Shown: positions 1 to 13,169 of the stretch, one piece after another | How the letters are laid out: every line of letters starts with the position of its first letter | Position numbering within the stretch: position 1 is the stretch's first letter | DNA from: Maribacter algarum (ex Lu et al. 2025) (nom. illeg.) | GTDB taxonomy: Bacteria > Bacteroidota > Bacteroidia > Flavobacteriales > Flavobacteriaceae | Length of the DNA: 64,000 nt | Assembly (NCBI GenBank): GCA_947495915.1 | Contig: CANMAW010000001.1 | Location: forward strand, 310,001-374,000 | Direction: 5' to 3' | Position numbers and translations under genes: made by a program | Notes under the pieces: model-generated | Told to the model about the DNA's origin: nothing | Databases searched by the model: none | What the model saw: the letters and a program-made list of their open reading frames with translations, nothing else

Positions 1-524
1 CGTTCAGGATCAATAGCAACCACTTGTGCTAATAATTCCTCTAATACCACAATACGTTCTTTAAAATCTTGCTCTAACACACTACCCTCTTCAGAACGAA
101 ATTTGTTAATTTCAATAAGTGCTTCTTTTAAGGCGATAACGATTGTTTTATAATCTTCATCACTTACATCTTCACGATCGGTTCTTAAAGCATCTGGCAT
201 TCGAAGTGCCATTTCCATTAAACGCAGATCATCGCCTTCAGCGATTGTTTTCAGCTGAGACATATAATTCTTGATTACCTCTTCATTAATCTGAGATGAA
301 GATTCAGCACCAGTTGATTCAACATACAGTCCGAAATCGACCTTACCCCGAACTAAAGAACTCGCAATACTTTTTCTTAGTTCGAGTTCTTTTTCGCGGT
401 ATGCTGATGGCATACGTGCATTTAAATCTAAATTTTTACTGTTAAGTGATTTAAGCTCAACAGTAATTTTTTTTGTCGGAAGCTGAATAACATGCTTTCC
501 GAAACCGGTCATTGACTGAATCAT
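1..524 (-). CDS. yicC: YicC family protein, partial (C-terminus outside window)
   Basis: I translated this by hand on the minus strand. The protein begins MIQSMTGFGKHVIQLPTKKI, and the MxSMTGFG start is the hallmark of the YicC/YloC family. YicC of E. coli is now regarded as an endoribonuclease that helps degrade some small RNAs. About 174 residues are visible; members are near 290, so the C-terminal domain lies outside the window. Upstream there is an exact Bacteroidota -7 element (544-551) with a TTTG at 574-577, placing transcription start about a dozen bases before the ATG. This supports the start at 524. Identification is firm; the RNase activity is transferred from the family. Confidence 0.88.
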   Translation of the reverse strand, partial: MIQSMTGFGKHVIQLPTKKITVELKSLNSKNLDLNARMPSAYREKELELRKSIASSLVRGKVDFGLYVESTGAESSSQINEEVIKNYMSQLKTIAEGDDLRLMEMALRMPDALRTDREDVSDEDYKTIVIALKEALIEINKFRSEEGSVLEQDFKERIVVLEELLAQVVAIDPE

Positions 525-543
525 AAATATGCTTTGATTTCGG

Positions 544-577
544 CAAAGGTACTGGTTTTCTTATAGAAAGAACCAAA
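544..577 (-). promoter_or_regulatory. Promoter of the yicC-like gene (-33 TTTG, -7 TACCTTTG)
   Basis: On the minus strand TTTG (577-574) is followed, after 22 bases, by TACCTTTG (551-544), an exact match to the Bacteroidota -7 consensus TAnnTTTG. The ATG follows at 524. The 22-base spacer is slightly longer than usual and contains an imperfect inverted repeat around TTTCT/AGAAA. Confidence 0.6.
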
Positions 578-614
578 TTTGCCTTGCTGACTAATTGCAT
601 CAAAAATCTGGAAT

Positions 615-670
615 AAAAGAGCTATTAAAATAGTTTATAAGACGCTATCATGAATGATTAAAGCTCTTTT
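615..670 (-). terminator. Possible terminator of the DUF1080 gene
   Basis: The 9-base arms AAAAGAGCT (615-623) and AGCTCTTTT (662-670) are perfect inverted repeats spanning the stop codon of the minus-strand gene ending at 658. The loop is long (38 bases) and the T-tract is part of the stem, so this is only a weak candidate. Confidence 0.35.
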
Positions 671-1398
671 ATCTTAATATTTCTAAATGACACGCCGTCA
701 CCATGATCTTGAACACCAATTTTACCTGTTGTATATTTTGCAAAATGTTCCCAATCTGCAAATTTTGATTTCGAAACCATATTACTCCATTCTGGGTCAT
801 TAACCGGAAAGTTTACAATCTCTGTATCATTAAGAACAATGACCCCCATATTTGTTTTATGATTAATTGTTATTTCACATAAATTCCACTCACCAACCGG
901 CTTAGTAACATCTTCAGAAGGAGAAACCATATCATACAATGCCCCTGCTTGATGACTTGTACCGTTTTTTCCATCAGGGTGTTTATCATTATCTAATACT
1001 TGAATTTCCGGCCCTGTTTCATAGGGCTGACCTAGATTATCAAGCTCTTTAACCGCCCAAAATATTCCACTATTTCCAGCTTCAGAAATTTTCCATTCTA
1101 AAGAAAGTACAAAGTCAGTATATTCTTCATTACTAACTATATTATAACTTTCTCCATTGCGCTCTTTTGGCGGATAGAAAACCATAGCTCCATCTTCAAT
1201 CTTCCAATGCTCTGAAACACCTTCTTTTCCATATTCATGCCACCCATCAAACGAAGAACCATCAAATAAAACAGTCCACTCATTTTTTGGCACCTCCATT
1301 TCCACCGGTGTAGTCAATTTTTCTTCTATTTCCTTTGTCTTTTCTTTACATCCAAAAAATGTAAGTGCTAATAATGTAGTAAAAAAAATACCTTTCAT
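658..1398 (-). CDS. DUF1080 (3-keto-disaccharide hydrolase family) lipoprotein
   Basis: The protein is about 246 residues and begins MKGIFFTTLLALTFFGC, a lipoprotein signal with lipobox Cys17. A longer reading from 1428 would put ten polar residues before the signal, so I chose the ATG at 1398. The mature part carries the DUF1080 pattern: WTVLFDGSSFDGWHEYG near the start, then NSGIFWAV, GPEIQVLDND, EWN and GKIGVQDHG. The fold is a concanavalin-like beta-sandwich. Characterised members hydrolyse 3-keto-glycosides after C3 oxidation of the sugar. The gene lies 42 bases downstream of a TIM-barrel isomerase gene, probably in one operon, within a locus of sugar oxidoreductases. Family is sure; substrate is unknown. 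Confidence 0.88.
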   Translation of the reverse strand: MKGIFFTTLLALTFFGCKEKTKEIEEKLTTPVEMEVPKNEWTVLFDGSSFDGWHEYGKEGVSEHWKIEDGAMVFYPPKERNGESYNIVSNEEYTDFVLSLEWKISEAGNSGIFWAVKELDNLGQPYETGPEIQVLDNDKHPDGKNGTSHQAGALYDMVSPSEDVTKPVGEWNLCEITINHKTNMGVIVLNDTEIVNFPVNDPEWSNMVSKSKFADWEHFAKYTTGKIGVQDHGDGVSFRNIKIKEL

Positions 1399-1440
1399 AA
1401 GTTCTATTTTAAATCCTAATATTTTCAATCAATTTTTCTT

Positions 1441-2493
1441 TTAGGTTCCTAATATTTTTCGAAGCATTTCTTTATCAACTGCTGCACCAGCAAAGTCATC
1501 AAAAGTTTTTTCGGTTGCTTCGATAATATGGTCTTGAATAAAAATTGCTCCTTCACGAGCACCTTGTTCTGGGCTTTTAATACAACATTCCCACTCCATT
1601 ACAGCCCAAACATCACAGCCATATTGGGTGAGCTTCGAAAAGATTGTTTTAAAATCGATCTGCCCATCGCCAAGTGATCGGTATCTACCTGCTCGATCTC
1701 CCCAGTCATTATAACCGCCAAATGCCCCTTTTTTTCCTGTAGGATTAAATTCAGAATCTTTAACATGAAATGATTTGATAAACTCATGGTAATGGTCAAT
1801 GTACTCGATATAGTCAAGCTGCTGTAAAACAAAATGACTTGGGTCGTAAAGAATATTTACACGTTTGTGATTTCCTGTAGCTTCTAAAAATCGTTCAAAT
1901 GTATCACCATCGTGAAGGTCCTCACCTGGGTGAATTTCATAACATACATCAACACCTTCCTCATCAAAATGATTTAAAATTGGCAACCATCTTTTCGCCA
2001 ATTCTTCAAAGCCCATTTCAACTAAACCGGCAGGTCTTTGTGGCCATGGATGCCAGGTATGCCATAACAATGCTCCTGAAAAAGTCGCATGTGCTTTTAT
2101 ACCAAGTCGACGACTAGCGGTAGCTGCCTTTTTCACAACATCAACAGCCCATTCTGTACGTGCCTTTGGATTGTTTTTTACACTGTCGGGCGCAAAATTA
2201 TCAAACATCAAATCATAAGCCGGGTGAACTGCAACCAATTGCCCTTGTAAATGAGTTGACAATTCGGTAATCTCTAAACCATATGAATTGACTTTTCCTT
2301 TCAATTCATCACAATAAGTTTGACTTTCTGCAGCTTTGTCTAAATCGATTAAAAAACTCTCCCATGTTGGAATTTGAATTCCCTTGTATCCCAAATCTGC
2401 TGCCCACTTACACATTCCATCTAAAGTGTTGAAAGGGGCTTTACTATCTACAAATTGTGCTAAAAATACTGCTGGTCCTTTGATTGTCTTCAT
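1441..2493 (-). CDS. Sugar phosphate isomerase/epimerase family protein (TIM barrel)
   Basis: A 350-residue AP-endonuclease-2-type TIM barrel without a signal peptide, so probably cytoplasmic. Likely metal ligands are in place: Glu186 in CYEIHPGE, Asp217 and His220 in YDPSH, His243 in SFHVKD and Glu300 in VMEWECC. Such proteins isomerise or epimerise sugars and keto-sugars using a divalent metal. It is the first gene of the unit that continues into the DUF1080 lipoprotein, and it is divergent (138 bases) from a GMC oxidoreductase gene. This context suggests that it acts on the keto-sugar released by the locus, but no substrate can be read from the sequence. Confidence 0.85.
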   Translation of the reverse strand: MKTIKGPAVFLAQFVDSKAPFNTLDGMCKWAADLGYKGIQIPTWESFLIDLDKAAESQTYCDELKGKVNSYGLEITELSTHLQGQLVAVHPAYDLMFDNFAPDSVKNNPKARTEWAVDVVKKAATASRRLGIKAHATFSGALLWHTWHPWPQRPAGLVEMGFEELAKRWLPILNHFDEEGVDVCYEIHPGEDLHDGDTFERFLEATGNHKRVNILYDPSHFVLQQLDYIEYIDHYHEFIKSFHVKDSEFNPTGKKGAFGGYNDWGDRAGRYRSLGDGQIDFKTIFSKLTQYGCDVWAVMEWECCIKSPEQGAREGAIFIQDHIIEATEKTFDDFAGAAVDKEMLRKILGT

Positions 2494-2631
2494 TTTATAT
2501 TTACTAGAAGTTATTGAATTTAAATATTAGAGAATTTAACCTATATTTAGAATGGAATTTCTCCCTTTTTTTCTTAAAAAGTTAAGATATAAATATAAGG
2601 AATACCTATAGAAAACCATAATAAATCTAGG

Positions 2632-4335
2632 ATGAATAAAGAAGAACAATATGACGCAATTGTTGTTGGCACAGGAATAAGCGGAGGCTGGGCTGCTAAA
2701 GAACTATGCGAAAACGGACTTAAAACTCTGGTGTTAGAGCGGGGTCGAATGGTTAAACATATTGAAGACTATCCTACTATACATGACGACCCATGGGACT
2801 ATCCTTTAAAAGGCGAACTTTCTAAAGAAGACAAAAAGAAATATCACGTTCAAAGTAGAGTTGGCTGGGCGCCTAAAGAAGACGTAAAGCACTTTTTTGT
2901 GAATGACCTTGAACATCCTTATGTAGAAACAAAACGTTTCGATTGGATACGGGGTTACCAGGTCGGTGGCAGATCTTTAACATGGGGCAAGCAGAGTTAT
3001 AGGTGGAGTGATATTGATTTTTCTGCAAATAAAAAAGAAGGGGTTAGTATTGACTGGCCGGTGCGCTACAAAGATATTTCTACGTGGTATGATAAAGTAG
3101 AGGAATTTATTGGTGTTAGTGGTGAAAATTTAGGTCTTGAAGTGCTACCTGATGGCAAATTTCAACCAGCTATGGATTTAAATTGCGTAGAGGAAGATTT
3201 CAAAAAAACGACTGCTGACAAATTTGATGATGGCCGTCTTATTACTATTGGTCGCGCCGCTCATATTACCGATCCAAATGCCAACTTTGAAGGTCGTGGT
3301 GTTTGTCAAAATCGAAATCGATGCTGGCGTGGATGCCCTTTTGGTGGTTATTTTAGCAGTAACTCATCAACACTACCTGCGGCCGATCGAACCGGAAATA
3401 TGACCCTACGACCCAACTCTATAGTACATGAAGTGATTTATGACGATAAAACTAAAAAAGCTACTGGTGTTCGAGTAATTGATGCTGAAACGCATGAAAA
3501 ACTTGAATATAAAGCAAAGGTGATTTTTTTATGTGCTTCAGCGATGGCATCAGTAGGTATATTAATGCAATCGAAATCAAAACGCTTTCCGAATGGATTA
3601 GGCAATGATTCTGATGCCCTCGGAAGAGGAATTATGGACCATCACTATAAACTTGGGGCTACAGCCAAAGTAGATGGTTATTTAGATAAATACTATCGAG
3701 GTAGAAGACCAAACGGTTTTTATATTCCACGTTTTGTTAATCTTGATGACAAAACAAAGAGAAAAGGATATCTACGAGGATTTGGATATCAAGGCTCTGC
3801 GAGTAGAAACGATTGGTCGAGTAGCATTGCGGAGTTGAGTTACGGTAAAGATTTAAAAGAAGAACTCTTAAAACCAGGAAGCTGGCAAATTGGAGTAACT
3901 GGTTTCGGAGAATTTCTTCCTTATGACGATAATCGAGTAACTTTAAGTGAGACTAAAAAAGATCAATGGGGGCTACCGCAATTAGTTTTTGACGTGGAGT
4001 TTAAAGAAAATGAGTACAACATGCGAGAAGACATTAAAAAAGAGATTGTTTCAATGTTCAAAGCTGCTGGCTTTAAAGATGTACAATCATATGAAGAATC
4101 TTCTGGCCCAGGGTTAGGTATTCATGAAATGGGCGGAGCTCGAATGGGGCACAATGCAAAAACTTCAATTGTAAATAAATTCAACCAAATTCATACCGTA
4201 CCTAATGTTTATGTTACTGATGGGGCTTTTATGACCTCATCTAGTTGTGTGAATCCATCATTAACTTATATGGCTTTTACCGCTAGAGCGGCTAATCATG
4301 CCGCTGAACAATTTAAAAACGGTAAGTTTTCTTAA
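2632..4335 (+). CDS. GMC family FAD-dependent oxidoreductase (paralogue 1, no adjacent small subunit)
   Basis: A 567-residue flavoprotein. The N-terminal dinucleotide-binding motif is VVGTGISGGWAAKEL, followed by the ribose-binding glutamate in VLERGR. The catalytic His498 lies in GIHEMGGARMG and Asn541 in CVNPSLTYMAF, as in GMC dehydrogenases. A cysteine motif C225-x5-C231-x3-C235-P precedes the substrate-side region. There is no signal peptide. It is strikingly similar along its whole length to the GMC protein at 9037, which is followed by a Tat-exported small subunit; this copy has none. Likely role: oxidation of a sugar or glycoside hydroxyl, plausibly at C3, passing electrons to a respiratory acceptor. 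An ASCH-domain gene follows. Confidence 0.9.
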   Translation: MNKEEQYDAIVVGTGISGGWAAKELCENGLKTLVLERGRMVKHIEDYPTIHDDPWDYPLKGELSKEDKKKYHVQSRVGWAPKEDVKHFFVNDLEHPYVETKRFDWIRGYQVGGRSLTWGKQSYRWSDIDFSANKKEGVSIDWPVRYKDISTWYDKVEEFIGVSGENLGLEVLPDGKFQPAMDLNCVEEDFKKTTADKFDDGRLITIGRAAHITDPNANFEGRGVCQNRNRCWRGCPFGGYFSSNSSTLPAADRTGNMTLRPNSIVHEVIYDDKTKKATGVRVIDAETHEKLEYKAKVIFLCASAMASVGILMQSKSKRFPNGLGNDSDALGRGIMDHHYKLGATAKVDGYLDKYYRGRRPNGFYIPRFVNLDDKTKRKGYLRGFGYQGSASRNDWSSSIAELSYGKDLKEELLKPGSWQIGVTGFGEFLPYDDNRVTLSETKKDQWGLPQLVFDVEFKENEYNMREDIKKEIVSMFKAAGFKDVQSYEESSGPGLGIHEMGGARMGHNAKTSIVNKFNQIHTVPNVYVTDGAFMTSSSCVNPSLTYMAFTARAANHAAEQFKNGKFS

Positions 4336-4380
4336 AAAACAAACCGACAATATTAACTAACCACCATACGTTTACATTTC

Positions 4381-4848
4381 ATGGACAACCATTCTGCCAA
4401 TAACATGTGGGGAGATTATTTAAAAAATCACCTCGAAGACGTCTTTCATGATGCCCCAAAAACCATCCACTTTTGTGATAATGAAAAAGATGCAAATGAA
4501 TGTTCGAAATTGGTACTTTCTGGAATTAAAAAGGCGACCACAGATTCGCTACTAGGTATACAGCATAGAAACGAACGCTTACCTAAAATTGGAGATTTTA
4601 TAGTTGTTACAGATTGGGAAGGAGAAGCCCAATGTATTATAGAAATAACCAAAGTTACCCTAAAACCATTCTTCAGTATTAATGAAGCATACGCTCAAAA
4701 AGAAGGTGAGGGAGATAAATCTTTAGATTACTGGAAGAAAACACATTGGGATTATTACAAACGCGAACTTGAGGTCTTTGACAGAGAACCACGCGAAAGC
4801 ATGATAGTGGTGTGTCAAGAATTTGAAGTAGTTTTTAAAAGAAAATAA
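4381..4848 (+). CDS. ASCH domain-containing protein
   Basis: A 155-residue soluble protein with the ASCH layout: an N-terminal helical part with WGDYL, then GIKKATTDSLLG, LPKIGDFIVVTDWEGEAQCII and a C-terminal DYWKKTHWDYYKREL helix. ASCH domains share the PUA-like fold and are thought to bind RNA or nucleotides; some related proteins are N4-acetylcytidine amidohydrolases or RNases. It sits 45 bases downstream of the GMC gene on the same strand and ends in a strong hairpin terminator, so it is probably co-transcribed, though it has no evident connection to sugar oxidation. Family call is good; function is unknown. Confidence 0.8.
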   Translation: MDNHSANNMWGDYLKNHLEDVFHDAPKTIHFCDNEKDANECSKLVLSGIKKATTDSLLGIQHRNERLPKIGDFIVVTDWEGEAQCIIEITKVTLKPFFSINEAYAQKEGEGDKSLDYWKKTHWDYYKRELEVFDREPRESMIVVCQEFEVVFKRK

Positions 4849-4849
4849 T

Positions 4850-4894
4850 CATTAAAAAAGCCTAGTAAATTTAATTTACTAGGCTTTTTTAATG
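4850..4894. terminator. Bidirectional rho-independent terminator
   Basis: A nearly perfect hairpin, AAAAAAGCCTAGTAAAT paired with ATTTACTAGGCTTTTTT, lies between two convergent genes. A-tract and T-tract flank the stem, so it can stop transcription from both the ASCH gene and the Gfo/Idh/MocA gene. Confidence 0.9.
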
Positions 4895-4911
4895 ATAAGA
4901 AACTTGTTAAA

Positions 4912-6051
4912 CTATTTAAGAAGTTTGACCCAAGTGTTCTTGTTTTTATTTGATTCTACAGTTGCCTCAATAAAATTCATTCCACGTACGCCATCTTCCA
5001 TTGTCGGAAACTCGCCTTCATCGTATTTTTTACCGCGTATGGCTTTTGCTACACCTAAATAAATATTAGCCATAGAATCGAAAATACCCTCTGGGTGCCC
5101 TGCTGGCAACTTAGTTCCATCTAAAGACAATTTAGAATTATAGGCATGGCCTGGCTTATATATCTGTGTGGGTTCAGTATCGCTTAATTTGTATAAGAAG
5201 TTCGGGTTTTCTTGCTCCCAACGAAAAGCTCCTTTAGAACCATATATCGCAATTGCTAATCCGTTTTCTTCACCCGTTGCAACTTGGCTACTTCGAATTA
5301 CACCCTTTACATGATCATCCATACGTATAAGTACAGTGCCATCAACATCCATTTTATTATCCTTATACAAATAATTAAAATCACTTAACAAAGATTTCAC
5401 TTTCAAGCCTGTGGTATATTCTACCATATTGAATGCATGAACACCAATATCACCCATACAAGAGCTAATACCAGCTTTTTTAGGGTCTAACCTCCAAACG
5501 GTAGAACGTTTCTTTTTGTCATGAATAATTTCATTTATCCAGCCTTGGTAATATCTTGCATCTACTTTATGAATTTTACCTATTTCACCAGCCTTTATCA
5601 TTTCACGCATTTGACGCACCATTGGGTAACCCGTATACGTATGTGTTAATGCAAAAACAGCACCCGATTTAGCATGTGCTTTTTGTAAAATTTTTGCCTC
5701 AGCTAAGGTCGTAGTCATTGGTTTTTCGCAAATAACATGAAAGCCATTATCTAATAGCTTTTTTGCCATCGGAAAGTGTAAAAAATTTGGTGTTAAAATA
5801 GAACACACTTGTATTCTTTCACTTTCAGGAAGTTTTAACTCCTCTTCAACCAGCGTATCAAAATCGGTGTATATTCTGTTTAATGGAACATCAATCTCTC
5901 GAGCAAATGCTTTATTTGCTTTAAAATCTGGATTGAAACAACCTCCAACTATTTCATAATTATCATTTATATGAGAAGCAACTCGGTGTAACACTCCGAT
6001 AAGAGAATCTCCACCTCCACCTAAAACTCCTAATCTTATTTTTTTTGGCAT
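4912..6051 (-). CDS. Gfo/Idh/MocA family NAD(P)-dependent oxidoreductase
   Basis: A 379-residue protein with an N-terminal Rossmann domain (GVLGGGGDSLIG), the signature Glu109-Lys110-Pro111 in HVICEKPMTTT, and the second catalytic motif Asp201/His205 in GDIGVHAFN. There is no signal peptide, so it acts in the cytoplasm. Members oxidise or reduce sugars and cyclitols, including 3-keto-sugar reductases. It is the last gene of a minus-strand group 8809 to 4912 (Tat TIM-barrel protein, DinB, MFS permease, this enzyme). In this context a 3-keto-sugar reductase or dehydrogenase acting after uptake is a reasonable inference. Confidence 0.87.
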   Translation of the reverse strand: MPKKIRLGVLGGGGDSLIGVLHRVASHINDNYEIVGGCFNPDFKANKAFAREIDVPLNRIYTDFDTLVEEELKLPESERIQVCSILTPNFLHFPMAKKLLDNGFHVICEKPMTTTLAEAKILQKAHAKSGAVFALTHTYTGYPMVRQMREMIKAGEIGKIHKVDARYYQGWINEIIHDKKKRSTVWRLDPKKAGISSCMGDIGVHAFNMVEYTTGLKVKSLLSDFNYLYKDNKMDVDGTVLIRMDDHVKGVIRSSQVATGEENGLAIAIYGSKGAFRWEQENPNFLYKLSDTEPTQIYKPGHAYNSKLSLDGTKLPAGHPEGIFDSMANIYLGVAKAIRGKKYDEGEFPTMEDGVRGMNFIEATVESNKNKNTWVKLLK

Positions 6052-6105
6052 GAATGATCGTATTTGTTTTATTAATTATTTGAGAGGTATGAATATATAA
6101 AATCT

Positions 6106-7338
6106 CTAAGAGTTATATGTGATTTTTTCATTTTTGAACAAAATGATAAATAAAAGTAAAACCCCGAATGAAAAGCCAGCCGGATATAACCAAATAGATT
6201 TCCAGTTATGAACACCATTTTGCAGCATAAAAGTATCTGTTAAATAACCGGCTACCCAAAAACCAACCAACATACCTATGCCATAAGTCGCTAAGGTAAT
6301 TAAACCTTGCGCAGCGCTTTTGTATTCTGAACCTGCTTTACTATTGGTGTAAATTTGACCTGAAACAAAGAAAAAATCATAACATATACCATGTAATGCA
6401 ATACCAGTTAGTAATAAAAAAGTAAGTTCGCCAGTATTTCCAAAAGCGAACATGGTGTAACGAACACCCCAAGCCAACATCGCAATGAGTATTGTTTTTT
6501 TAAAACCAAACCTTTTAAAGAAGTAAGGCAATAAAACAAGGAATAAAATTTCTGACCCTTGGCCTAAAATTCCCATTTTGGCGGTAGTATTTTCCATACC
6601 TATTTCTATTAAAAAAGGATTGGTGTTTTGATAATAAAAAGCAAGTGGAATGCAAATAAGAATAGAAGACAAAAAGAAAATTAGAAAATTTCTATCTTTT
6701 AATAGCTTAAGCGCATCAAGACCTAAGATGTTACCAATAGAAACTTTTTGATCTTTTGATATTCTCGGCGGTGTTTTTGGCAAAGTAAAGCTCAAAAGAC
6801 CTAAAACTGCGGAAGCGATGGCGGTCATTAGAAAAGTATTCCTTAACAATCCCGTAGAAACTCCTGTCTCTGAATCCCAATGAAAAACGTAGCTTATAAG
6901 CACGCCAGCTATAATCCATCCTAGGGTACCAAATACCCGCACAAAAGAAAATTCTTTAGCGGGGTCTTTCATTTGGTTAAAAGCAATTGAATTTACCAAT
7001 GCAAGCGTTGGCATGTATAAAATCATATACACTAAAACATAAGGATAAAAGGTATTAAAGTCTGATGTTTGAAACATCATGTACATTAACAATGCTCCAC
7101 TTAAATGTAAAACACCTAATATCTTTTCGGCATTGAAAAAACGATCTGCAATTAAACCAATGACAAATGGCGCAACAATGGCTCCCCAACTCTGGGTGGA
7201 AAAAGCCATACCTATCTGACCAGCATCAGCCCGTATAGTATTGCCTAAAAAAGTTCCTAAAGTTACAAACCAACCGCCCCAGATAAAAAATTCTAAAAAC
7301 ATCATAACTGAGAGTTGAATACGCACTTTAGAATTCAT
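6106..7338 (-). CDS. MFS transporter, nucleoside:H+ symporter-like
   Basis: A 410-residue integral membrane protein with about twelve hydrophobic segments. The start resembles the NupG/XapB-type nucleoside:H+ symporter family (MMFLEFFIWGGWFVTLG), and the conserved FSFVRVFGTLGWI follows in the first half. Many Bacteroidota relatives lie in sugar-catabolic loci, so a sugar or keto-sugar substrate is more likely here than a nucleoside. It is 54 bases upstream of the Gfo/Idh/MocA gene and 9 bases downstream of the DinB gene, so an operon is likely. Transporter class is confident; substrate is an inference from context. Confidence 0.85.
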   Translation of the reverse strand: MNSKVRIQLSVMMFLEFFIWGGWFVTLGTFLGNTIRADAGQIGMAFSTQSWGAIVAPFVIGLIADRFFNAEKILGVLHLSGALLMYMMFQTSDFNTFYPYVLVYMILYMPTLALVNSIAFNQMKDPAKEFSFVRVFGTLGWIIAGVLISYVFHWDSETGVSTGLLRNTFLMTAIASAVLGLLSFTLPKTPPRISKDQKVSIGNILGLDALKLLKDRNFLIFFLSSILICIPLAFYYQNTNPFLIEIGMENTTAKMGILGQGSEILFLVLLPYFFKRFGFKKTILIAMLAWGVRYTMFAFGNTGELTFLLLTGIALHGICYDFFFVSGQIYTNSKAGSEYKSAAQGLITLATYGIGMLVGFWVAGYLTDTFMLQNGVHNWKSIWLYPAGFSFGVLLLFIILFKNEKITYNS

Positions 7339-7347
7339 GATTGTCGT

Positions 7348-7791
7348 TTATCTCTTATATAAAACAAAATCAAAAGGAATAGGCTCAATGTCATTATTTC
7401 TGAAATCGGTTGACATTTGACCACGATGATGGGTCGAGTGATTAATTATATGAAATAAAATATCTTGAACCGTATTCGAAAATAACCGTCCTTCTTCGTT
7501 CTCATAATCAACACGTCTATCAAAATCAGTAGTATTTGTCGTTATTTCAAACGAATTTCTTTGATTTTCATAGTGAATATCAGCCCAATCACTAATTTGA
7601 TGTATTTGAAATAAATCGTATTCTGCCTTTTTATTCATCAACTTTGCGTTCCATCTATGATGTGTATTCAATATATGACTAAACAGCCAAATACTTTTTT
7701 CAGGCACCTGACTCATTTGTTCACAATGTTCAATTAGCTGCTTATTGCAGTAAAAATTGTAATCGAATAATTGATTAAGAAATACTTTCAC
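7348..7791 (-). CDS. DinB family protein
   Basis: A 147-residue four-helix protein of the DinB/YfiT-like superfamily. The metal-binding histidines expected of the family are visible: an N-terminal one in FSHILNTHHRW and the C-terminal pair in INHSTHHRGQ. Family members are metal-dependent and some are thiol-S-transferases (bacillithiol, mycothiol), but most are uncharacterised. It lies between a Tat-exported TIM-barrel gene (25 bases) and an MFS permease gene (9 bases), an unexpected position inside a sugar operon. Confidence 0.82.
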   Translation of the reverse strand: MKVFLNQLFDYNFYCNKQLIEHCEQMSQVPEKSIWLFSHILNTHHRWNAKLMNKKAEYDLFQIHQISDWADIHYENQRNSFEITTNTTDFDRRVDYENEEGRLFSNTVQDILFHIINHSTHHRGQMSTDFRNNDIEPIPFDFVLYKR

Positions 7792-7816
7792 CTAGTTTAA
7801 AATTTAATCGTCGAAG

Positions 7817-8809
7817 TTAACCTAATTCTTTAGCAACTTTTAATAGTAAATTGCGTGTAGCCTTAATACCCTCGACTTCATTTAGTTCTTTACCCTCATA
7901 TTCAACACCAATAAAACCAGTATAACCAGCCTCTTTAACCATTTTTAGCATTTTAAAATAATCAATACCTAAATCATTACCATTTGCGTCAAATTCATTT
8001 GATTTGGCACTTACTGCTTTCGCGTAAGGCATTAATTCAGCTACCCCTTTGTACTTGTCATATGCTTCTTTACAACTCCAATCTTCATTTCTTGTAATAC
8101 AGAAATTTCCAAAATCGGGTAAAGTTCCACAATTATCAAGGTTAACAGCTTTCATCACTTCTGCATGCAATGCCCCATTCGAAGACAACCCTCCATGATT
8201 TTCAACAAGAATATTGATATTTTTGGTTTTAGCATAAGTGGAAAGTTTGGTTAAACCGTCAACCGCACTTTTCTTCCATTCTTCTGGCACCATACTACCA
8301 TTTAAATTTACTCGAATAGCGTGGCAACCCATTGCAGCAGCAGCATCTACCCACTTCTTATGTTTTTCAACAGTTTCATCTCTTTCTGCTTCGTCATTGA
8401 CGGCTAAATTTCCTTGACCATCAATCATAATTAGCACATTTTCCATTCCGTGTTTTTTGGCTTCTGCATTTGATTTAGAAACAAAAGCTGCCATTGCTTC
8501 TTCTGAATAATCGGCATCAGCTAACTCAGGGTTGTACAATTGACTTACATATTCTAATCCTGTAAATCCCCATTCTTTTGCTTTTTCTGCAAAACTGTAA
8601 GGGTCTACCCCCTCTTCTTTAATCATTCTATGAATACTCCACTGTGCTAATGAAAGTTTAAAAAACGGCTCAATTGGTTGATCATTATCAGTGATTACCT
8701 CTTTTTCGGAAGTTTCCTTTTTAGCACCTTCCTTACAAGCATGAAGACCAAATAAGCTAAAAGCCAAACTGGCTTGCGAACCATTTCTAATAAAATTTCT
8801 TCTTTTCAT
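7817..8809 (-). CDS. Tat-exported lipoprotein of the sugar phosphate isomerase/epimerase family
   Basis: A 330-residue TIM-barrel protein. Its N-terminus, MKRRNFIRNGSQASLAFSLF followed by GLHAC, combines a twin-arginine motif with a lipobox (Cys25), so the product should be a folded periplasmic lipoprotein. Barrel motifs include FTGLEYVSQLY, IRVNLNGSM, ILVENHGG and GFIGVEYEG. The DPSH-type motif of the cytoplasmic relative is replaced by LPDFGNF. It is the first gene of the minus-strand group ending at 4912 and is divergent (227 bases) from the second GMC operon. Periplasmic location suggests action on the oxidised sugar before uptake. Confidence 0.85.
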   Translation of the reverse strand: MKRRNFIRNGSQASLAFSLFGLHACKEGAKKETSEKEVITDNDQPIEPFFKLSLAQWSIHRMIKEEGVDPYSFAEKAKEWGFTGLEYVSQLYNPELADADYSEEAMAAFVSKSNAEAKKHGMENVLIMIDGQGNLAVNDEAERDETVEKHKKWVDAAAAMGCHAIRVNLNGSMVPEEWKKSAVDGLTKLSTYAKTKNINILVENHGGLSSNGALHAEVMKAVNLDNCGTLPDFGNFCITRNEDWSCKEAYDKYKGVAELMPYAKAVSAKSNEFDANGNDLGIDYFKMLKMVKEAGYTGFIGVEYEGKELNEVEGIKATRNLLLKVAKELG

Positions 8810-9036
8810 TTTAGTTGAAGTTATAGTGATTATGTTGAATTTTAATTTCTTATCGGCTTTACTAACTGCTAAAAATCAATGTGTTAACCAAAATAGCCAA
8901 TTATTCAAAAAAATAAAGACTAAGAATTTGACAATAAATAGTATGAAACTAGCTTATATATGCAATAAGAATAGGTAATAAAAGTAGAAAATTAATTTAT
9001 AATTTAATAAATTTAAAGATTAAACAATTAGTTATA

Positions 9037-10755
9037 ATGAGTAAATTCTATTACAATGAAGAACAAGAGTCGTATGATGCGATTGTTGTAGGTACAGGAA
9101 TCAGCGGTGGCTGGGCTGCAAAAGAATTATGTGAAAATGGTCTTAAAACCTTAGTCCTAGAACGTGGACGAATGGTAAAACACCGCGATGATTATAAAAC
9201 CGCCAATTTAGACCCGTGGGATTTACCTAATGGAGGTGCTCCAACCCAAGAGATGATTGCTAAGCAAGAAAAACAAAACCGAACAGGATATACTACTAAT
9301 GCCGCAAGTAATATGTGGTTTGTTGACGACTTAGAGCATCCTTATAATGAAATTAAGCGTTTTGATTGGATGCGGGGTTATCACGTTGGTGGCCGTTCAT
9401 TACAATGGGGGCGCCATAGTTATAGATGGAGTGATATAGATTTCAAAGCTAATTTAAATGATGGGCACGGTGTTGACTGGCCAGTTCGTTACAAAGATAT
9501 TGCCCCTTGGTATGATAAGGTGGAGTCATACATTGGTGTAACTGGTGAAATGCTAGGGTTACCGCAATTACCTGATGGCAAGTTTGAGCCTATGATGGAG
9601 TTAAATTGTGTAGAACAACATGTAAAAGAAAAAGTAGCTGAAAATTTTGATGGCCGAGTGGTAACAGCCGGTCGAGTAGCTCATATTAATAGTGACAAAC
9701 AATTTGATGGTGATGGTAGGTCACGTTGTCAATTTAGAAATAGATGTATTCGAGGTTGTCCTTTTGGAGCATATTTCAGTAGCTTATCATCTACACTGCC
9801 AGCTGCAGAAGCCACTGGCAATATGACACTTCGCCCAGATTCTATTGTACATGAAGTAATTTATGATCCAAATACGAAAAAGGCAACAGGGGTAAAAGTT
9901 ATTGATAGAGTAACTAAAGAAGAGTTTGAATTTAAAGCCAAAGTTATTTTTCTTTGTGCTTCTGCCGTTGCTTCGACCTCTATTTTGATGCAGTCGAAAT
10001 CTGATCGTTTTCCAAATGGTATGGGCAATGATTCTGATCAATTAGGGCGTAATATAATGGATCATCATTTAGGTGTAGGTGCGGCCGGAAAATTTGATGG
10101 TTTTTCGGATAAGTATTATAGCGGTAGAAAGCCAAATGGAATTTACTTGCCAAGATTTAGAAACTTAGGCGGTGAATCGAATAGAACCGATTACACCCGT
10201 GGCTTTGGCTATCAGGGCGGTGCAGGAAGAGGCAATTGGGAAGAATCTATTGCAGAATTATCTCATGGAGCTGATCTTAAAGAAGCCATTCTAAAGCCAG
10301 GTGGCTGGACCTTTGGAATGGGAGGCTTCGGTGAAGTATTACCATATCAAGACAATCGCTTTACCCTAGATTATGATAAATTAGATCAATGGGGTTTACC
10401 AACAGTAACCTTTGATGCTGAGTTTAAAGAAAATGAATTAAACATGCGTAAAGACATGATGAATTCTGCGGTTGATATGTTGACTAAAGCTGGTCTGCGC
10501 GATGTAGAACCTTTTGATAGAGAAACAGCTCTAGGTTTAGGAATTCATGAAATGGGAACTGCACGCATGGGTAGAAACAGAAAAACCTCAGTTGTAGACG
10601 GCAACAACGCTTTGCACGATGTACCTAACGTTTATGTTACTGATGGTTCATTTATGACCTCAGCCAGTTGCGTTAACCCTTCGTTAACTTATATGGCATT
10701 TACAGCCAGAGCAGCTAACCATGCCGCTCAAGAACTTAAAAAAGGAAATATATAA
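9037..10755 (+). CDS. GMC family FAD-dependent oxidoreductase (paralogue 2, large subunit)
   Basis: A 572-residue flavoprotein with FAD motif VVGTGISGGWAAKEL, catalytic His504 in GIHEMGTARMG and Asn547 in CVNPSLTYMAF. Cysteines 231, 237 and 241 form the motif C-x5-C-x3-C-P. Known membrane-bound sugar dehydrogenases of this type pair a GMC subunit lacking its own signal with a small Tat-exported subunit, sometimes with a cytochrome c. Here the stop codon overlaps by one base the start of exactly such a small-subunit gene. The large subunit is therefore probably carried to the periplasm by hitch-hiking. Likely reaction: glycoside or sugar oxidation, with C3 favoured by the neighbours. Confidence 0.92.
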   Translation: MSKFYYNEEQESYDAIVVGTGISGGWAAKELCENGLKTLVLERGRMVKHRDDYKTANLDPWDLPNGGAPTQEMIAKQEKQNRTGYTTNAASNMWFVDDLEHPYNEIKRFDWMRGYHVGGRSLQWGRHSYRWSDIDFKANLNDGHGVDWPVRYKDIAPWYDKVESYIGVTGEMLGLPQLPDGKFEPMMELNCVEQHVKEKVAENFDGRVVTAGRVAHINSDKQFDGDGRSRCQFRNRCIRGCPFGAYFSSLSSTLPAAEATGNMTLRPDSIVHEVIYDPNTKKATGVKVIDRVTKEEFEFKAKVIFLCASAVASTSILMQSKSDRFPNGMGNDSDQLGRNIMDHHLGVGAAGKFDGFSDKYYSGRKPNGIYLPRFRNLGGESNRTDYTRGFGYQGGAGRGNWEESIAELSHGADLKEAILKPGGWTFGMGGFGEVLPYQDNRFTLDYDKLDQWGLPTVTFDAEFKENELNMRKDMMNSAVDMLTKAGLRDVEPFDRETALGLGIHEMGTARMGRNRKTSVVDGNNALHDVPNVYVTDGSFMTSASCVNPSLTYMAFTARAANHAAQELKKGNI

Positions 10756-11417
10756 TGGATAGAAGAAAAGCACTCAAGAATATGGGACTTGCAATGGGTT
10801 ATACTGTTGCAGCTCCCACTTTAATAAGCATCATGCAAAGCTGTAAGCAGGAAGCAGTGATGAATTGGACTCCCGACTTTTTTACAAAAGACGAAGGTTC
10901 TGTATTAACTGAGCTAGTGGATATTATTCTACCCAAAACAGATTCGCCGTCTGCTTCTGAAGTACAAGTGAACTTATTTATAGATCGGTTCATGAATGAA
11001 GTTGCTGATAAACAACAACAAGACTTTGTTAAAATATCAATGGGTCGCTTTTTAGAAAAGGCTACCAAAGATGCTAATAAAGAAAGTGTGGCCGACTTAA
11101 CTTCCGAAGAACTTGAAAAAACTTTGGCTGTAGCATTAAAGAAAGCTAGCGATGAAGATGAAAAACTTAGTATGCAAGCAATTAAAACTTATAATGAGGC
11201 TATAGCTGAGGGTAAAGAAGCAATTCTTGATGAAACCATTGCCAGAAACTCTTTTGCAAACCAATTGAGAGGTATGACTATTATGGCGTATAAAACCTCA
11301 GAATATGTTGGTGAAAATGTTTTAGCTTACCTACCAGTTCCTGGCGCTTATATTGCTTGTGATGATATTGACACTTTGACGGAAGCAACCGCAAAAGGAA
11401 AAGCATGGTCACTTTAG
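10755..11417 (+). CDS. Gluconate 2-dehydrogenase subunit 3 family protein, Tat-exported lipoprotein
   Basis: A 220-residue protein. The N-terminus MDRRKALKNMGLAMGYTVAA has a twin-arginine motif, and Cys30 in SIMQSC could be a lipidation site. The mature part matches the small subunit of sugar dehydrogenases (FTKDEGSVLTELVDIILPKT, then LRGMTIMAYKTSEYVGENV). In the family this subunit carries or stabilises the GMC flavoprotein during Tat export. The ATG overlaps the upstream GMC stop codon (TAATG), so translation is coupled. It is the only such subunit in the window, yet there are two GMC genes. Confidence 0.9.
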   Translation: MDRRKALKNMGLAMGYTVAAPTLISIMQSCKQEAVMNWTPDFFTKDEGSVLTELVDIILPKTDSPSASEVQVNLFIDRFMNEVADKQQQDFVKISMGRFLEKATKDANKESVADLTSEELEKTLAVALKKASDEDEKLSMQAIKTYNEAIAEGKEAILDETIARNSFANQLRGMTIMAYKTSEYVGENVLAYLPVPGAYIACDDIDTLTEATAKGKAWSL

Positions 11418-11427
11418 ACTAAAATAA

Positions 11428-12345
11428 ATGAAACGAAGGAGCTTCATACAAAAAACAGCCCTAACCAGTGGAATGCTTTCACTGAGTGGGGCTTTTTTAA
11501 ATGCCACAAACAGTCAAGAAACCATGAAACATCAATTCAAATTGAAATATGCACCACACTTGGGCATGTTCGAACATTTAGCTGGCAAAGACCCCATTGA
11601 TCAACTCAAATTCATGGCTGATATGGGATTCAAGGCTTTTGAAGATAATGGTATGCGAACTCGACCTATCGAATTACAAAAAAAGATGGCCGATATAATG
11701 CAACAACGAAACATAGAAATGGGTGTTTTTGTTGCTCACGAAATTTATTGGAAAGAACCTAATTTAGCCTCAGGTGACCTTGATAAACGTAAAGAGTTTC
11801 TAAGCTATATAGAAAAAGCCGTAGAGGTTGCTAAAAGAGTTAATGCTAAATGGATGACTGTTGTACCGGGCCATGTAGATTTAAGACAGTCAATGGGCTA
11901 TCAGACAGCACATGTTGTTGAATCTTTAAAACAAGCTTCCGCTATACTTGAACCACACAACTTAACCATGGTTTTAGAACCACTAAATTTCTATAATCAT
12001 CCAGGGTTGTTTTTAACCGGTTCACCACAAGCATATGAAATTTGCAAAGCTGTTGATTCACCTTCGTGTAAGATACTGTTTGATATTTATCATCAACAAA
12101 TTCAAGAGGGCAATTTAATACCCAATATGGAAGCAGCTTGGGATGAAATTGCTTACATTCAAATTGGAGATAATCCTGGTCGCAAAGAACCAACAACAGG
12201 TGAAATCAACTACAAAAATGTTTTTAAGTTTATTTACAAAAAAGGATTCAATGGAATTCTTGGAATGGAACATGGCAATTCAAGACCTAACAAAGAAGGT
12301 GAATTGGCAGTTATAGATGCATACAAATCAGTAGATAATTTTTGA
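11428..12345 (+). CDS. Tat-exported TIM-barrel protein, hydroxypyruvate isomerase-like
   Basis: A 305-residue protein that begins MKRRSFIQKTALTSGMLSLS and has a twin-arginine signal without a clear lipobox, so it is probably soluble in the periplasm. The barrel has likely metal ligands Glu184 (VLEPLN), Asp219 and His222 (FDIYH), Gln245 (IQIGD) and Glu281 (MEHG), the pattern of hydroxypyruvate isomerase-like proteins. It lies 10 bases after the small-subunit gene and is the third gene of that operon. A role in isomerising or cleaving the oxidised sugar in the periplasm is inferred from context only. Confidence 0.85.
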   Translation: MKRRSFIQKTALTSGMLSLSGAFLNATNSQETMKHQFKLKYAPHLGMFEHLAGKDPIDQLKFMADMGFKAFEDNGMRTRPIELQKKMADIMQQRNIEMGVFVAHEIYWKEPNLASGDLDKRKEFLSYIEKAVEVAKRVNAKWMTVVPGHVDLRQSMGYQTAHVVESLKQASAILEPHNLTMVLEPLNFYNHPGLFLTGSPQAYEICKAVDSPSCKILFDIYHQQIQEGNLIPNMEAAWDEIAYIQIGDNPGRKEPTTGEINYKNVFKFIYKKGFNGILGMEHGNSRPNKEGELAVIDAYKSVDNF

Positions 12346-12607
12346 TTTGAAGGCTCTTTTCTCATAAGCATCTTACTTTTCACCTTATAATTCTGCATTG
12401 TAATCGACTCCAAGATTTGAATATTCAATCTTTAGCATTCATTTTTAGTGTGTTTTTTCTTACAATAAAGCTCGACAAACTACAATAAAATGGGTCGTTC
12501 ATCGGAGATAAATAAAAATAAAAGCACTTTATCGAATTTATAAACAGTTTTCGATATACTACGCAATAGCAGTATAAGATTATCTTTAAGTAGCCCGTTC
12601 TTGTTAT

Positions 12608-12790
12608 ATGAACGTTACCCCTTATTTTTACGCAATCGTTGCCTACTTCGTTTTAATGCTCCTTGCTAAGCTTGCATATTCAACGTTGGTTGGCCCAAAG
12701 AAAATTCAGAAATTGGAGAAGCCAGTTAAACCTATTTGGAACATCAACCTTCTTCAGTTTAGACAAAGTTTAATGAGTATTTGGTTTTAA
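12608..12790 (+). CDS. Small predicted membrane protein, 60 aa
   Basis: The ORF encodes MNVTPYFYAIVAYFVLMLLA followed by a basic segment (KKIQKLEKPVKP) and a mostly polar tail. One transmembrane helix near residues 7-27 is evident. The stop codon lies inside the left arm of a perfect 15-bp terminator stem (12776-12811), which suggests that the transcript is a discrete unit ending here. I do not recognise the family. It could be a genuine small protein, a truncated gene, or chance coding within a small RNA. Confidence 0.4.
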   Translation: MNVTPYFYAIVAYFVLMLLAKLAYSTLVGPKKIQKLEKPVKPIWNINLLQFRQSLMSIWF

Positions 12791-12816
12791 ACTTATTTAA
12801 AACCAAATACTTTTTT
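12776..12816 (+). terminator. Strong rho-independent terminator
   Basis: A perfect 15-bp stem, AGTATTTGGTTTTAA (12776-12790) and TTAAAACCAAATACT (12797-12811), with a 6-base loop, runs into six T residues. It ends a plus-strand transcript covering the 60-codon ORF. Confidence 0.88.
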
Positions 12817-12946
12817 AATGCTTTTTCCCATAAATTGAGCTAATAAACTGGTCAATTATACATTTTAACGATATTTTAAGTGAATATTTGTAATTTTCGT
12901 AATCTTTTTACGTTAAATTACCGTATATAGTTTAAAGTATCGGGCA

Positions 12947-13030
12947 ATGGAAAAATATCTAATCATTTTACTTATTTATGTTATCGCTTATGGGTTCGCT
13001 GTAGTTATGCGACCTTACGTTGAAAAATAA
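12947..13030 (+). CDS. Possible 27-aa hydrophobic peptide
   Basis: ATG at 12947 opens a 27-codon frame that reads MEKYLIILLIYVIAYGFAVV plus MRPYVEK, a single hydrophobic helix with charged ends, as in small membrane proteins. It lies 76 bases before a strong hairpin that could end its transcript. No family is recognised and no clear promoter element was found, so the evidence is composition and position only. Confidence 0.3.
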   Translation: MEKYLIILLIYVIAYGFAVVMRPYVEK

Positions 13031-13105
13031 GTGAAAAACACATGTTTAATCTACATGTTGCGAAAATAGGATGTATTATTTTGTCCTAGTTTAAAATTAT
13101 AAGCA

Positions 13106-13148
13106 TAAAAAAATCCAACACCATTATAATAATGGTGTTGGATTTTTT
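13106..13148. terminator. Bidirectional terminator downstream of nrdA
   Basis: A perfect hairpin of about 16 bp, with arms AATCCAACACCATTAT and ATAATGGTGTTGGATT, is flanked by A and T tracts, 22 bases past the nrdA stop on the minus strand. It can also end plus-strand transcripts from the small ORFs. Confidence 0.9.
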
Positions 13149-13169
13149 GTTAAAGAATAATTTTAAATA

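Follow-up and report, generated by a model that had tools for sequence, protein, structure and literature searches.

Does the 12-kb locus at positions 658-12345 of a Maribacter algarum DNA stretch encode a route by which glycosides are oxidized before they are cleaved? The stretch analyzed (64,000 nucleotides; contig CANMAW010000001.1, positions 310,001 to 374,000; hereafter the window) carries, within this locus, two GMC oxidoreductases (GMC1 and GMC2), a small subunit, a DUF1080 lipoprotein, three TIM-barrel proteins (a probable hydratase, TIMtatA and TIMtatB), a Gfo/Idh/MocA oxidoreductase (Gfo) and a permease (Table 1). A preliminary description had proposed that a glycoside is oxidized at C3 in the periplasm and cleaved, and that the keto-sugar is imported and then reduced or isomerized. 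This pathway is well supported by the match of the hydratase, the DUF1080 family, the GMC/small-subunit pair and the recurrence of similar clusters. It is highly likely that the locus is a 3-keto-glycoside catabolic cluster working like the LacABC/DUF1080 system of Caulobacter and the dehydrogenase-OGE-HYD-Gfo operon of Agrobacterium. The general pathway is already known, and clusters akin to this one have been published (PMC9007349, PMC10628242).

The evidence used here was read from sequence, and comprises family membership, signal features judged by eye, conservation and hydratase identity. Coordinates are positions in the window, and domain calls were made with Pfam and NCBIfam models against their cut-offs.

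The probable hydratase and the proposed route

A phmmer search of the PDB with the cytoplasmic TIM-barrel protein returned 8ro4, named '2-hydroxy-3-keto-glucal hydratase', over the full length (residues 1-349, E 3.2e-166); we take 8ro4 to be the Agrobacterium enzyme. On this match the protein, initially classed as isomerase-type, is very probably a 2-hydroxy-3-keto-glucal hydratase and not an isomerase. An assignment as isomerase or inosose dehydratase was rejected, with the IolE model scoring 57.6 bits against a cut-off of 290. Since the protein is a probable hydratase, the route includes an elimination/hydration branch. The gene is present in 18 of 20 near-relative loci, and in these its product is 80-98% identical. 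The hydratase has no evident signal sequence, whereas the cleaving enzymes are exported, and the glucal itself is therefore probably imported.

Gfo had its best PDB match in 3v5n, with weak matches to 6a3f and 6a3i, identified as levoglucosan dehydrogenase in the part of PMC10066097 drawn on here. Additionally, it is 39% identical to the Gfo adjoining the hydratase in Rhizobium beringeri. The permease is 56% identical to that of a Hymenobacter cluster, and its nucleoside:H+ symporter family is also found in a Xanthomonas cluster.

In the proposed mechanism, GMC2, exported via the twin-arginine translocation (Tat) signal of the small subunit, would oxidize C3 of a sugar residue of the presumed glycoside substrate in the periplasm and pass electrons to a presumed acceptor, and GMC1 would be a second catalytic subunit, probably borrowing the same small subunit. 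The DUF1080 lipoprotein would cleave the 3-keto-glycoside in the periplasm, perhaps aided by DUF1080 proteins encoded elsewhere in the genome, and TIMtatA may contribute as well; the steps ascribed to TIMtatA and TIMtatB are conjectural. The permease would import either the 3-keto-sugar or 2-hydroxy-3-keto-glucal. Once in the cytoplasm, the glucal would be converted by the hydratase to a 3-keto-sugar, which Gfo would reduce to a hexose.

Putative dehydrogenase subunits

The best solved homologues of GMC2 are the fructose dehydrogenase large subunit and glucose dehydrogenase, and not, as would have told against the pathway, enzymes acting on alcohols or choline only. NCBIfam models also scored, for instance those for cholesterol oxidase, pyranose oxidase and choline dehydrogenase, but all remained far below their cut-offs. 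The conserved His/Asn and the cysteines of a C-x5-C-x3-C motif are present in the GMC proteins. In GMC2, the three cysteines align with those of fructose dehydrogenase, which presumably bind a [3Fe-4S] cluster. GMC1, 66% identical to GMC2, carries this motif together with HEMG and VNPSLT motifs; it has no signal peptide of its own (by eye) and no adjoining small subunit. GMC2 adjoins a Tat-type PF13618 small subunit, with an RR motif and a Cys in its translation, which would be expected to bring its GMC partner through the membrane.

Conservation of the locus

Gene content was surveyed around the best 80 of at least 583 hydratase relatives in named genomes, which are close relatives by selection. 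Sixteen of these loci are shorter than 20 kb, and in general the flank taken stops 10 kb from the hydratase, so that genes at the far end are undercounted; the 64 loci of 20 kb or more are called long. Nearly all 80 are labelled Flavobacteriaceae (i.e., Maribacter, Zobellia, Arenibacter, Allomuricauda, Eudoraea and others). Family models found GMC in 76, Gfo in 76, TIMtatA in 72, an ASCH-domain protein in 72, the permease in 69, a DinB-family protein in 64, the small subunit in 61 and TIMtatB in 43, and neither an AtOGE-like eliminase nor the cytochrome model matched in any of the 80. Amongst the long loci, Gfo was found in all 64, TIMtatA in 62 and TIMtatB in 38.

The order of the block is kept in near relatives, and the preliminary description's supposition that the genes belong together thus held in the synteny comparison. 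A chance gathering of genes was rejected in view of the block kept in these relatives and in the 80 named loci. Clusters of GMC, small subunit, hydratase, Gfo, importer and DUF1080 were also identified in Hymenobacter, Xanthomonas, Palleronia and Paracoccus. The same set occurs in Halomonas (found by models only), in Pseudoalteromonas with a distant GMC (30-32% identical to GMC1/GMC2) and in Ketogulonicigenium, where the stretch covered holds no DUF1080.

The DUF1080 lipoprotein probably begins at an ATG, which gives 246 aa, and not at a TTG. Among its PDB relatives are putative glycosyl hydrolases and one named '3-keto-disaccharide hydrolase domain-containing protein', and residues E130, Q132, D135 and H231 (counting from the residue that follows the ATG) are invariant in 7/7 aligned DUF1080 proteins. 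This protein is the best-scoring type in 77 of the 80 named loci, and a second DUF1080, of the Hymenobacter type, is found in 63, a split that rests on models built from two and five sequences. No second DUF1080 adjoins the first in the window's genome, where the best match to the Hymenobacter type is 54% identical and lies on another contig.

In one of the relatives, Maribacter litopenaei, several frames are split (TIMtatA into three; Gfo, DinB, the small subunit and GMC1 into two each), which suggests sequencing errors or decay.

Two builds of the cluster

Hydratase genes were identified in 49 of 247 sampled Bacteroidota genomes, at 51 places. Forty-nine places were classified, leaving out the window's own and that of genome G014, already present as locus L059. 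No GMC of this type was found at 24 of the 49 (one of them, L261, has a distant GMC); 22 of these also lack TIMtatA, an AtOGE-like gene and the cytochrome, one has an AtOGE-like gene with the cytochrome, and one has TIMtatA. The 25 loci with both hydratase and GMC fall into 16 with an AtOGE-like gene and cytochrome, four with cytochrome only and five with TIMtatA only, and none of the 25 combines TIMtatA with either of the others (Fisher tests, relatedness ignored: p 0.002 against AtOGE-like, p 2e-5 against cytochrome). The window's own family holds both builds, one with five loci from four genera and the other with four loci from a single genus.

In 21 of the 49 loci the cytochrome model, built from two sequences, matched frames of 101-208 residues. 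A looser search for separate CxxCH frames of at least 80 residues gave none in the six TIMtatA loci of the sample, and short frames (80-102 residues) in 4 of 62 long named loci. A quick GMC tree of 84 rows, built without bootstrap and with long branches flagged, took in one in four of the long named loci together with the sample, the paralogue loci and references from plasmids. In it, all 39 TIMtatA-build rows fell in one 48-row clade with a Shimodaira-Hasegawa-like approximate likelihood ratio test (SH-aLRT) support of 98. The clade contained no AtOGE-like-build row; its remaining rows were five sulfatase-linked ones and four others.

Eight plasmid-borne loci with hydratase and GMC gave a mixed picture. 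TIMtatA and AtOGE-like genes occurred together in none of the eight, which fits two builds; seven have an AtOGE-like gene, and Croceicoccus has only a distant match to the TIMtatA model (24% identity, no evident signal). The cytochrome was found in only two of them (Hymenobacter and Xanthomonas), a count that tells against two builds. Because the other six are also without it, lacking the cytochrome does not set the TIMtatA build apart, and the idea that a missing cytochrome marks this build, which holds in the Bacteroidota sample, was weakened. The cytochrome subunit may not be defining for the wider group.

A second point against two builds is that three AtOGE-like genes lie elsewhere in the window's genome, so that elimination could be supplied from there. 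There is close to an even chance that this is how both the eliminase and the cytochrome missing from the locus are provided, and that the builds differ in gene position and not in biochemistry. The genome also has six Cytochrome_CBB3 matches over the cut-off, none of them at the locus, and its best match to the Hymenobacter cytochrome falls inside an open frame of 1145 residues on a different contig; the six plasmid-borne clusters without cytochrome point the same way. Such a supply from outside is harder to reconcile with the uniform absence of AtOGE-like genes from the 80 named loci, and with the fact that one of the three copies (C4:139662) adjoins a different GMC/small-subunit pair of its own.

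A bolder proposal is that marine Flavobacteriaceae have a second form of the pathway, in which membrane-anchored eliminases of an undescribed family, that of TIMtatA, have replaced the AtOGE type in the cluster, with no dedicated cytochrome and with a sulfatase-linked sister extension; we put it forward tentatively and regard it as rather unlikely. Searches of the open-access literature listed no account of the TIMtatA build. The Flavobacteriaceae with the conserved build are marine degraders of algal polymers. If the proposal were true, C3 oxidation would reach sulfated algal glycans through the sister GMC/small-subunit proteins encoded in sulfatase-rich polysaccharide loci, and sisters that do oxidize at C3 would suggest a non-hydrolytic route for sulfated oligosaccharides. 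Glycoside cleavage by oxidation and elimination has only recently been recognized as a general alternative to glycoside hydrolases. The conserved build puts one uncharacterized exported family where other lineages have an AtOGE-like eliminase, and poses two questions, the role of TIMtatA and how the dehydrogenase is re-oxidized.

The exported TIM-barrel proteins

TIMtatA is called a lipoprotein because Cys25 is invariant in 37/37 aligned relatives. RR was found near the start of only 36 of 68 relatives, although the choice of start favored RR, so the family is not always exported by Tat. For TIMtatB, with the same bias in start choice, RR was present in 31/31 relatives examined.

TIMtatA is the single match of its kind in the window's genome, and its AlphaFold model has a mean predicted local distance difference test (pLDDT) score of 89.7. 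In both sequence and fold its closest solved structure is 4ovx (49% identity), a 'xylose isomerase domain protein' of Planctomyces limnophilus, followed in the fold search by DgpB-C deglycosidases (E 5e-14), UlaE (1e-12) and psicose 3-epimerase (6e-12). With deglycosidases only slightly ahead of sugar epimerases, the modelled fold singles out no function. Residues E203, H205, D232 and E303 are invariant in 37/37 relatives, and the expected strand-7 histidine of the metal site is S267, as assigned by eye without superposition. The AtOGE structure 8bvk (PMC10628242, in the part seen) is absent from the 13 PDB matches of the TIMtatA profile at E <= 0.01, and the AtOGE-like profile matches it at 1.2e-101, which confirms what the AtOGE-like model represents. 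As judged from these profiles, TIMtatA lies outside the known AtOGE eliminase family. It belongs to a family without a stated function and may be an unrecognized 3-keto-glycoside-cleaving enzyme; an eliminase is our favored guess.

The NCBIfam model nearest to TIMtatB is hydroxypyruvate isomerase (129 bits against a cut-off of 353), and PDB and fold searches placed hydroxypyruvate isomerase and ketose (tagatose) 3-epimerases nearest, with a weaker resemblance to Escherichia coli YcjR, a 3-keto-D-glucoside 4-epimerase. Relatives of TIMtatB in the same place form two groups by similarity, one sharing 58-63% and the other 73-82% identity with TIMtatB itself, which may represent two substrate types.

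These resemblances, together with the apparent loss of the strand-7 histidine from TIMtatA, lend some weight to the alternative that DUF1080 does all the periplasmic cleavage, with TIMtatA and TIMtatB epimerizing or isomerizing the keto-sugars. A DUF1080 protein of Caulobacter has likewise been proposed as the cleaving enzyme in the section of PMC9007349 concerned. We consider this alternative a serious one, the balance leaning somewhat against it. A hydratase for the elimination product is strongly conserved in near relatives, and AtOGE-like TIM eliminases occur in 16 of the 25 GMC loci of the sample, with TIMtatA in five of the other nine. Moreover, apparent hydrolysis can itself be elimination followed by hydration, because a variant of the Bacteroides thetaiotaomicron 3-keto-O-glycoside lyase eliminates and yet is hydration-deficient (PMC13273386, 2026; DUF1080 membership is unstated in the portion available).

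The locus is not unusual in the way first supposed, namely by its two exported TIM barrels. Judged from N-termini by eye, without a predictor, the TIM barrels other than the hydratase are exported in 3/3 cases in Hymenobacter, 2/2 each in Xanthomonas, Palleronia and Paracoccus, and 1/2 in Ketogulonicigenium; with such signal-bearing proteins common in these clusters, the pair was rejected as a mark of an unusual locus. The suggestion of an undescribed branch survives in part, in that TIMtatA falls outside the known eliminase family, but not for the reason originally given.

Weighing the pathway

Several observations weigh against a C3-oxidation pathway. The nearest solved GMC enzymes oxidize fructose or glucose, and C3 specificity therefore rests on the neighboring genes; the position of oxidation is inferred from these, and not from a direct comparison with Caulobacter LacA or Rhizobium GlycDH. 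The cluster is also without a cytochrome c gene. For fructose dehydrogenase and LacABC, a c-type cytochrome subunit is encoded in the cluster, and since none is found here the locus is described as working like LacABC and not as LacABC. The 24 hydratase loci without a GMC of this type mean that the hydratase alone is no proof of a dehydrogenase role. Additionally, none of ten DUF1080 genes in Pedobacter had a lactose phenotype, for which the authors invoke redundancy (PMC9007349, in the results at hand).

A rival reading, in which the GMC/small-subunit pair would feed respiration as an ordinary periplasmic dehydrogenase of aldoses or polyols and its neighbors would serve separate sugar or inositol catabolism, agrees with those fructose and glucose dehydrogenase relatives and with the sample loci that hold hydratase, Gfo and permease without GMC, but is improbable given that GMC, small subunit, DUF1080 and hydratase are kept together in several lineages and that the hydratase matches a named 2-hydroxy-3-keto-glucal hydratase, with the inosose dehydratase model far below its cut-off.

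Gene content and layout

Every gene named in the preliminary description was identified at its coordinates, with Pfam concordant for those scanned; the ASCH and DinB genes inside the cluster had been missed. From one end, the order is DUF1080 and hydratase (-), GMC1 and ASCH (+), and Gfo, permease, DinB and TIMtatA (-); at the other end are GMC2, the small subunit and TIMtatB (+), then two open reading frames that we read as ribonucleotide reductase subunits.

Table 1. Predicted genes of the locus, with coordinates in the window.
Feature	Coordinates	Strand	Evidence
DUF1080 lipoprotein, probable periplasmic 3-keto-glycoside hydrolase/lyase	658..1428	-	PF06439, Pfam E 2.6e-49
Cytoplasmic TIM barrel, probable 2-hydroxy-3-keto-glucal hydratase	1441..2493	-	PF01261; PDB 8ro4 match
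GMC1, putative glycoside 3-dehydrogenase catalytic subunit	2632..4335	+	Pfam GMC domains
ASCH-domain protein	4381..4848	+	Pfam E 3.2e-25
Gfo/Idh/MocA oxidoreductase, probable 3-keto-sugar reductase	4912..6051	-	Pfam
Nucleoside:H+ symporter-family permease, probable keto-sugar or keto-glycal importer	6106..7338	-	PF03825, E 3.8e-111
DinB-family protein	7348..7791	-	PF05163 E 2.4e-13; PF04978 E 2.2e-4, below its cut-off
TIMtatA, exported TIM-barrel lipoprotein, candidate periplasmic 3-keto-glycoside-cleaving enzyme	7817..8809	-	PF01261; Cys25
GMC2, putative glycoside 3-dehydrogenase catalytic subunit, flavin adenine dinucleotide (FAD) + probable [3Fe-4S]	9037..10755	+	Pfam GMC domains
Tat-exported small subunit, probable lipoprotein (by eye)	10755..11417	+	PF13618 E 6.7e-27; RR motif + Cys
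TIMtatB, Tat-exported TIM barrel, hydroxypyruvate-isomerase/tagatose-3-epimerase-like	11428..12345	+	NCBIfam, PDB, fold search

The reported lack of a cytochrome c was confirmed, as no CxxCH gene was found: the only CxxCH frames of at least 50 aa in positions 1-13300 are antisense inside the hydratase gene and an out-of-frame stretch inside the permease gene. The reported lack of a SusC/SusD pair also stands, with none among the open reading frames or Pfam matches within 658-12345. The SusC model matches two frames without SusD at the far end of a 17-kb upstream stretch on contig C1 (L067:1325-6452), some 9-14 kb past the DUF1080 gene, and is matched in 20 of the 64 long named loci.

Of the 64 long loci, 61 keep the ASCH gene, which lies between GMC1 and Gfo, and 56 keep the DinB-family gene. 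The latter has weak similarity to mycothiol-S-transferase, and a role in thiol quenching of reactive keto-glycals is speculation.

Other GMC genes of the genome

The window's genome has three other genes with a GMC C-terminal domain, at C4:185158-186867 (L068), C4:296311-298014 (L070) and C4:141211-142920 (L069). All three lie within 3 kb of a sulfatase, on a contig with a high background for such linkage (21 of the genome's 36 sulfatase matches). Two have SusC/SusD within 5 kb, and one adjoins GH88 and GH3 genes. The linkage was also found in L071, L079, L080 and the Catenovulum locus L089, and not in L072, L075, L076 and L078. At L069, C4:139662-142920 holds a separate trio of GMC, small subunit and AtOGE-like genes, which may be a second C3-oxidation system; its GMC shares 34% identity with GMC2 and 48% with the GMC of a Pseudoalteromonas cluster.

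Comparison with known systems

In the LacABC system, LacA is a GMC protein and LacB a cytochrome, and the Caulobacter control genome gave matches to PF05199, PF13618, PF06439 and PF13442. According to the parts of PMC9007349 considered here, Caulobacter fitness data mark lacABC and a DUF1080 gene close by as important for using lactose, Pedobacter has a putative lactose dehydrogenase that counts for growth on lactose, salicin and other glycosides, and LacABC with DUF1080 was recognized by gene neighborhood in Indibacter, Algoriphagus and Halomonas titanicae. The window locus shares the GMC flavoprotein with its small subunit, an exported DUF1080 protein encoded nearby and periplasmic cleavage. 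It differs in having no cytochrome c gene and two GMC subunits, one without a small subunit, and it also has TIM barrels, a hydratase, Gfo and a permease.

The Agrobacterium operon, as far as the available part of PMC10628242 describes it, encodes a GlycDH homologue, two TIM barrels and a Gfo protein; the first TIM barrel is a 3-keto-glycoside eliminase (AtOGE) and the second (AtHYD) a hydratase, on evidence the authors call preliminary. The window locus resembles it in the flavin dehydrogenase, the two TIM barrels, Gfo and a hydratase of the 8ro4 type. It differs in having no AtOGE-family gene, of which TIMtatA is no member, and in the added DUF1080. A four-step route is outlined in the part of PMC13273386 seen.

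The levoglucosan pathway (LgdA-LgdB1-LgdB2-LgdC) runs likewise through oxidation, elimination, hydration and reduction, and PF01261 and Gfo enzymes take part in it too (PMC10066097). It differs in that both redox steps are NADH-dependent (LgdA and LgdC are Gfo-type) and import is by an ABC system, and the sections of that paper covered here mention no GMC or DUF1080 for it.

The C-glycoside deglycosidases (DgpB/C, PuCGE) are at 17-19% identity to TIMtatA, which has no recognized partner subunit, is an exported lipoprotein and apparently has the strand-7 histidine replaced. Like TIMtatA they are TIM barrels, and they make up its fold matches 2-7, after 4ovx. The invariant E203-x-H205 of TIMtatA resembles their strand-5 metal ligand and catalytic histidine, as these are described in the relevant part of PMC10628242.

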